Part shown: positions 14,959 to 15,111 of the stretch, piece by piece | Layout of the letters: every line of letters starts with the position of its first letter | Position numbering within the stretch: the first letter of the stretch is position 1 | NCBI GenBank assembly: GCA_913055625.1 | Contig: CAJXJW010000001.1 | Location: 682,001 to 746,000 of the forward strand | Reading direction: 5' to 3' | DNA length: 64,000 bases | Source: an uncultured Pseudomonadota bacterium | GTDB taxonomy: Bacteria; Pseudomonadota; Gammaproteobacteria; Steroidobacterales; Woeseiaceae | Notes under the pieces: model-generated | The model's input: the letters and a program-made list of their open reading frames with translations, nothing else | Database searches by the model: none | Told to the model about the DNA's origin: nothing | Position numbers and translations under genes: made by a program

Positions 14959-14987
14959 TTGTCTGCACGGGGTCGATCTGATAACGT
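14959..14987 (+). promoter_or_regulatory. Candidate pyrG promoter
   Basis: TTGTCT (14959-14964), a 17-bp spacer and TAACGT (14982-14987) directly follow the tilS stop. A transcript from here would start near 14993-14996 and contain the whole antiterminator/terminator leader of pyrG. The -35 is fair and the -10 is weak. Confidence 0.4.
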
Positions 14988-14996
14988 CTAACACCG

Positions 14997-15040
14997 TCTT
15001 TTATCCAACGACGGCGCGGCATTCGAAGGGTTGGAAAAGA
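14997..15040 (+). promoter_or_regulatory. Candidate antiterminator stem in the pyrG leader
   Basis: Bases 14997-15009 pair with 15030-15040 through 11 Watson-Crick pairs, with only A15003 and T15004 bulged (TCTTTT plus CCAAC against GTTGGAAAAGA). The 3' arm is the first 11 of 17 bases of the 5' arm of the terminator hairpin at 15028-15070, so the two folds exclude each other. The 5' arm would lie within the first ~15 nt of the transcript and includes a run of four T (14999-15002). No ATG-led leader peptide is present. Confidence 0.5.
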
Positions 15041-15080
15041 GCACCGCCAGCAGTGCTTTTCTTCCAGCCCTTATCTTTTT
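15028..15080 (+). terminator. Intrinsic terminator / attenuator hairpin before pyrG
   Basis: The 5' arm 15028-15044 pairs with the 3' arm 15053-15070 in a 17-bp stem with a single bulged C (15061), two G-T pairs and an 8-base loop. It is followed by the T-rich run TTATCTTTTT (15071-15080). It ends 31 bp before the pyrG ATG. It can act as the end of the tilS operon and, if the promoter at 14959 is used, as an attenuator of pyrG. Confidence 0.7.
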
Positions 15081-15111
15081 CCCGTCTTCGCTGACCGGAA
15101 CGAATCATCAG

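Follow-up and report, generated by a model that had tools for sequence, protein, structure and literature searches.

In Bacillus subtilis, the run of G with which pyrG transcripts start is extended and pairs with the pyrimidine-rich arm of a terminator, so that the added G prevents attenuation. Slippage at initiation is also known from Escherichia coli codBA, and the attenuation of E. coli pyrBI makes use of a leader peptide. For E. coli pyrC, the actual starts are presumably C7 and G9, counted from the -10 box. According to a passage in PMC7818426, the start of E. coli pyrC and pyrD shifts to C at a low GTP/CTP ratio, and an mRNA hairpin then prevents ribosome binding. Further passages of that source attribute UTP attenuation to E. 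coli pyrBI and pyrE, mention that PyrG is raised upon pyrF inhibition, and, with reference to Turnbough & Switzer 2008, state that start-site switching seems to control E. coli pyrG. The attenuation of B. subtilis pyrG via reiterative transcription appears in an excerpt of PMC4448216, which cites Meng et al. 2004. Excerpts of other sources count pyrG among the E. coli fusions whose expression a rho mutation raises more than 2-fold (PMC7815308), suggest that 3' ends formed in the leader may regulate Pseudomonas aeruginosa pyrG (PMC8297930), and name a 'pyrG motif' beside a uORF case (PMC11109978).

The window analyzed here is a stretch of 64,000 nucleotides whose source genome is Woeseiaceae-like. 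It carries pyrG behind a short leader, for which an earlier sequence-only reading had proposed transcription attenuation. Based on comparisons of related leaders and on RNA folding, we lean towards the view that this leader is a CTP-feedback attenuator run by the choice of transcription start.

Locus, promoter and start register

The gap between tilS, which ends at 14958, and pyrG, which starts at 15112, is 153 bp long, as the sequence-only reading had it. The gap and the gene behind it hold the following features:

14959..14987, + strand: pyrG promoter, with a -35-like TTGTCT (14959-14964), a 17-nt spacer and an extended -10 TGA-TAACGT (14979-14987)
14993..14996, + strand: start region A6 C7 C8 G9, counted from the -10 box, with a proposed CTP/GTP-sensitive start choice
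14994..15014, + strand: 5' hairpin P1, formed by CCGTC (14994-14998) and GACGG (15010-15014), with 5 bp and an 11-nt loop; proposed anti-antiterminator
14998..15009, + strand: antiterminator 5' strand (C11 and the P1 loop TTTTATCCAAC), predicted to pair with the terminator 5' arm
15015..15027, + strand: linker between P1 and the terminator, where an extra hairpin is inserted in some other genera
15028..15070, + strand: intrinsic-terminator-like hairpin from folding, with 5' arm 15028-15044 and 3' arm 15053-15070
15071..15080, + strand: terminator tail seen in the sequence, T-rich and interrupted, as it also is in aligned relatives
15112..16758, + strand: pyrG, CTP synthase, the controlled gene, from its ORF and homology

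Among the matches listed, the closest named relatives of the protein are from Woeseiaceae and Woeseia MAGs, with 81-83% identity. Of 60 relatives, 57 yielded a PyrG match, and all 34 same-genus genomes with DNA reaching the leader (the window's own included) share it. The pattern P1-loop-GGGTTGGA is far more frequent than chance would allow: 62 of the 73 genus genomes carry it, at most once each, and the reversed control has no hit; across the order, the exact P1-loop-arm pattern is present in 55 of 296 genomes and 2 of 68 genera, both inside Woeseiaceae. A wider family sample, in which 29 of 30 genomes gave a match, covered pyrG of other genera and a few additional members of the genus. The leader sets leave out L031 (contig end), L291 (misplaced start), and L294 and L295 (partial matches).

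The promoter-like sequence noted earlier is well conserved. Its -10 side reads TGATAACGT, 17 nt after TTGTCT (14959-14964), and among 62 family leaders, 57 have their TTG 17 nt from the -10 and another 2 have it at 18 nt; the window's promoter lies under the threshold of a generic promoter scan. As in an attenuator, the promoter is upstream of the leader hairpin, and both are conserved. A conserved leader peptide is absent when ATG ORFs and the TTG frame are compared across leaders: no ATG ORF is common to them, in agreement with the earlier statement that no ATG-led peptide is visible, and the TTG start at 15031, which shares the pyrG frame in the window, does so in only 12 of the 38 genus leaders (frames 12/13/13).

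P1 begins exactly at C7-C8-G9. The corresponding motif C7-C8-purine9 stands at this register in 39 of the 40 rows from the genus (these rows include the repeat-looking contigs L052, L053 and L056; the sole miss is L031, a contig ending inside the leader) and, outside the family, in 14 of 15 rows that represent ten further families of the order (15 of 21 matches; shuffle mean 0.8 of 15). For L039 and L040 the motif lies about 190 nt upstream, possibly by chance. Among the matches listed, it is also present in 33 of 74 named others, compared with 5.3 in shuffles (the named others were drawn from the 80 best of these matches, L086 being dropped because its match starts inside the gene), and in 55 of 100 class genomes, compared with 8.1 in shuffles; nine other offsets give 6 to 20 of these 100, and CC followed by a pyrimidine at position 9 gives 7. 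These 100 come from 149 places listed, with matches in 178 of 184 genomes; most families contribute a single genome, and the set leans towards relatives because the most similar were taken first; in two of them, L221 and L222, the start codon is not at the expected place. When CC is not required, the 75 class genomes with an extended -10, again among the matches listed, have C7 in 57, C8 in 55, a purine at position 9 in 56 and T10 in 55. The purine is not universal, as position 9 is T in 17 of the 75, and the Pseudomonas rows among the matches listed have CCT instead of CC-purine in 11 of 18. Seven Pseudomonas rows (L085, L088, L094, L101, L113, L117 and L125) have C7C8G9 soon followed by a stable hairpin of species-variable sequence. 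By eye, the E. coli pyrC, pyrD and pyrG sequences all have C7C8G9 after the -10 box, with the pyrG start reading TATACT GCTTTC CCGTC. The start motif is thus kept where the remainder of the leader is not, which is expected if the motif does its own job.

For rows with the motif and a leader of 25-160 nt, we also compared how strongly a C7-started 5' end pairs downstream. Such pairing was clearly beyond chance in the other families of the order (mean z -1.95, n = 12) and weak elsewhere, with a mean z of -0.53 (n = 51) in the class set and -0.77 (n = 30) in the named set, both among the matches listed, so such pairing is not universal. The f10 leader L044 has a 5' ACCGTCGC that by eye is exactly complementary to GCGACGGT shortly upstream of the start codon, an arrangement that by analogy is pyrC-like. 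Likewise, CGGCGG just upstream of the pyrG start codon is complementary to a 5' CCGTCG in L042, L046, L057-L059, L061, L063, L064 and L066 (by eye), which by analogy looks like pyrC-type occlusion of the ribosome site.

Competing pairings in the leader

The hairpin at 15028-15070 has 17 pairs and a single bulged C at 15061, and the 119-nt leader folds with -42.4 kcal/mol (z = -4.56), a stability that none of 200 shuffles equals. The 17-bp hairpin of the sequence-only reading therefore stands; the tail described with it is T-rich but interrupted, and the hairpin is absent from the list of a simple terminator scan. In the basal stem, pairing is maintained via double changes, for example G-C to A-U in 1 and U-A to C-G in 6 of 52 leaders, a count from which L273, L277 and L279 were left out because their best hairpin did not begin at the GGG anchor. 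A U-G wobble at 15031/15067 is maintained in 39 of the 52 leaders, as if the terminator were held slightly weak; in the antiterminator of the window the same base pairs as U-A. Behind the tail, 44 of 55 family leaders have a TTTC motif, often extended to TTTCCCG (15076-15083 in the window).

Bases 15030-15041 of the terminator 5' arm double as the antiterminator 3' strand. The rival pairing that uses this arm comprises 11 bp, and we place it at 14998-15002/15037-15041 plus 15004-15009/15030-15035; the earlier claim of an 11-bp pairing sharing the arm is correct with these coordinates. Loop and arm change together between genera, reading UCCAAC/GUUGGA in the window's genus, UUUAAUC/GAUUAAA in g187 and GACC/GGUC in g190. 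When loops and arms were swapped among 48 distinct pairs from nine genera, own partners had a mean of -6.7 kcal/mol and all combinations -5.3 kcal/mol. The interaction beyond row and column effects was -1.43 kcal/mol in favor of the own arm (p = 0.0012, and 0.0004 in a repeat), with permutations that treat genera as exchangeable and ignore the tree. Every p remained at or below 0.0075 when one genus at a time was left out, and four control leader segments gave no signal (p 0.15-0.94). Within the genus, loop and arm likewise gave no signal (p = 0.64, 27 distinct pairs). Covariation in both stems, which had been suggested as a check, is accordingly seen across nine genera for the antiterminator and as double changes in the terminator, and not within the genus.

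Swap test, folding and helix spans used a set of 55 leaders, without L282, L284, L288-L290, L292 and L293, which have no clear terminator. The predicted antiterminator helix covers at least 10 of 12 bases in 41 of the 55, and in 47 it extends to C11 or U12. Since the helix there comes up to C11, a base of P1 itself, or to its neighbor, P1 and the antiterminator are predicted to exclude each other. Taken together, the sequence comparisons support a mutually exclusive antiterminator on the terminator arm. The hallmark of attenuation that the sequence-only reading saw in one sequence gains support from the conservation of the leader and from the way loop and arm covary between genera, and we regard the attenuator architecture in the pyrG leader as very probably real.

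P1 sits at the extreme 5' end of the leader, and its loop is the antiterminator strand. It is present in 62 of 63 Woeseiaceae leaders parsed (the sole miss is L285), as CCGTC/GACGG in 57, CCGTC/GGCGG in 4 and CCGTT/GACGG in 1, with G-U keeping the pairing in the variants. P1 is nearly invariant, and the 62 family leaders contain no double compensatory change in it; its loop has 11 nt in 54, 10 in 6 and 12 in 2 of them. A reading of CCGTC-N11-GACGG as a DNA operator is the less likely one, as the variation in loop length (10-12) and the tolerated G-U pairs fit RNA better. An extended -10 followed by CCGTC occurs only once in the window's genome, which is no enrichment because reversed control patterns, too, occur once on each strand. 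The linker after P1 has only two bases that are 90% conserved in the genus, and these two differ in other genera. In g187 (L272, L275, L278, L281, L283 and L296) it appears by eye to hold an extra hairpin of the type AGAAGCC...GGCTTCT, with P1 and terminator retained. In five g185 leaders (L288-L290, L292 and L293) and one g184 leader (L282), P1 and its 5' start are kept and a clear terminator is absent, so P1 may there have a separate role, in RNA stability or with an unseen partner.

A candidate switch and its rivals

In the mechanism that we favor, RNA polymerase would use one promoter and start at A6, C7, C8 or G9. With ample CTP, starts at A6 and C7 would win, and the RNA would open with (A)CCGUC and fold P1 with GACGG. 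P1 would hold back the antiterminator strand, the terminator would form, and most transcripts would end before pyrG. When CTP is scarce (high GTP/CTP), transcription would start at G9 and the RNA would lack two of the five P1 pairs; with P1 lost, the loop strand would pair with the terminator 5' arm, and polymerase would read into pyrG. The use of both starts, the shift of starts with CTP and the biasing of termination by P1 in the cell are what we infer. A6 is a good start and also carries P1, so the switch would work only if A6-C7 initiation, too, responded to CTP.

When transcripts ending ahead of the terminator 3' arm were folded, the mean P1 probability was 0.52, 0.39, 0.17 and 0.06 for starts 6, 7, 8 and 9, with mean sequestration of the arm at 0.37, 0.48, 0.65 and 0.71. 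Comparing G9 with A6, sequestration was higher by more than 0.02 in 46 of 55 leaders, equal in 9 and lower in none. On average, P1 and the antiterminator are close to balance in these models, and the start tips them one way or the other; the information lies in this near-balance alone, because the weakening of P1 by removal of 5' bases is built into the fold. The direction of the modeled tilt suits product feedback. In the window's own leader (L002), the modeled antiterminator has 0.97-0.99 at every start, so that a kinetic action of P1 would be needed there; at no start does the scored antiterminator pair exceed 0.05 in L006, L013 or L025.

P1 is an element that the sequence-only reading did not have, and we judge it somewhat probable that it couples start choice to attenuation. 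More tentatively, we propose, at a little under even chances, that the choice between C7 and G9 sets P1 as an anti-antiterminator, so that CTP feedback would need neither protein nor ribosome nor aptamer, and that C7-C8-purine9 is an old and widespread pyrG feature of the class whose outputs vary by lineage, with an attenuator in Woeseiaceae and apparently ribosome-site occlusion in others.

The leader could instead be unregulated or controlled by a protein, the hairpin serving as a constant partial terminator or an insulator from tilS, or an RNA-binding protein setting the balance. With tilS directly upstream and a weak tail this has some appeal, but the hairpin stands downstream of the conserved pyrG promoter, and plain insulation leaves antiterminator covariation, P1 and the conservation of the start register unexplained; we consider this reading unlikely. 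A protein could still take part. Slippage, which the sequence-only reading had offered as one possible switch at a run of four T, would alter the 5' end or abort transcription through reiterative addition at CC/CCC or at that run. The T run is there in the window leader, and C at position 6 in 49 of the 75 class genomes (among the matches listed) would make a CCC start. However, the T run is not conserved (relatives have TTTAG, TCTAG, TACAG or ATTG) and is withdrawn as the switch, position 6 is A or G in the window's genus, which leaves only CC, and there is neither a G run at the start nor a pyrimidine-rich terminator arm for added G, the 5' arm being purine-rich. This makes slippage very improbable; nucleotide-sensitive initiation, the other suggestion made for the T run, survives as the likeliest switch once it is moved to C7-C8-G9.

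An H-type pseudoknot riboswitch would leave P1 formed while its loop UCCAAC pairs with GUUGGA, and a ligand, either a nucleotide or glutamine, would stabilize the fold and block the terminator. This would agree with a six-base pairing that stops exactly at the P1 boundary in most genus leaders, where no base separates the stems, with the P1 loop of 10-12 nt in the 62 parsed leaders, and with the persistence of P1 in g185, in which the terminator is not evident. Against it, where the pairing reaches C11 or U12 (47 of 55) no strand is left to cross the second helix, the two conserved linker bases of the genus, which differ in other genera, offer no obvious pocket, and Rfam has no match at the gathering score (at E up to 5 it returns two weak minus-strand matches, E 2 and 3.7). 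The extent of the helix in most leaders favors a three-way choice among P1, antiterminator and terminator over a pseudoknot aptamer, which we find rather improbable in general and possible where only about six bases pair.

Relation to known pyrimidine controls

If start choice does drive this attenuator, start-site switching and attenuation, each a known pyrimidine control, would be joined in one device, and RNA polymerase alone could convert a nucleotide ratio into read-through. CTP-sensitive initiation at pyrG would then perhaps be common across a large bacterial class. It would also open the control of pyrG in Gram-negative bacteria, so far poorly described, to direct tests in vitro. In the open-access literature searched, we found no attenuator described as driven by the choice of start site; the 'pyrG motif' named in PMC11109978 could be identical to this leader. 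The sequence-only reading held such a device in a gammaproteobacterium to be new; the hints of pyrG leader control in passages of PMC8297930 and PMC7818426 trim that novelty.

Like pyrBI and pyrE, the Woeseiaceae leader has a leader terminator for which we propose pyrimidine sensitivity; unlike them, it has no leader peptide and encodes an antiterminator. With B. subtilis pyrG it shares the gene, pyrimidine starvation as the proposed signal and a leader terminator, whereas its start, A/G-CCGUC, and its purine-rich arm, GGGUUGG, leave no room for the added-G device. P. aeruginosa also has a pyrG leader with a 3' end, and PA7 (L094) has the C7C8G9 start with a hairpin close behind, but the hairpin is another one and the P1-loop/arm device is not recognized there. 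E. coli pyrG is the same gene with the same start register, but its 49-nt leader has no visible P1-like local hairpin or intrinsic attenuator.

The nearest likeness is to pyrC and pyrD of E. coli and Salmonella, with C7-C8-G9 in E. coli, a 5' hairpin that requires the C-started RNA, and repression expected at high CTP. The window's leader indeed has C7 and a purine at position 9 after the -10, and its 5' hairpin requires an upstream start, as a G9 start drops two of the five P1 pairs. It does not have a hairpin over the ribosome-binding site: 97 bases lie between the end of P1 (15014) and the start codon (15112), and for this reason we do not file it as a member of the pyrC/pyrD type. The pyrC/pyrD hairpin prevents ribosome binding, whereas P1 would hold the antiterminator strand and act on termination. 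If our proposal is true, the new part is the coupling of start choice to an attenuator, both component controls being already known.
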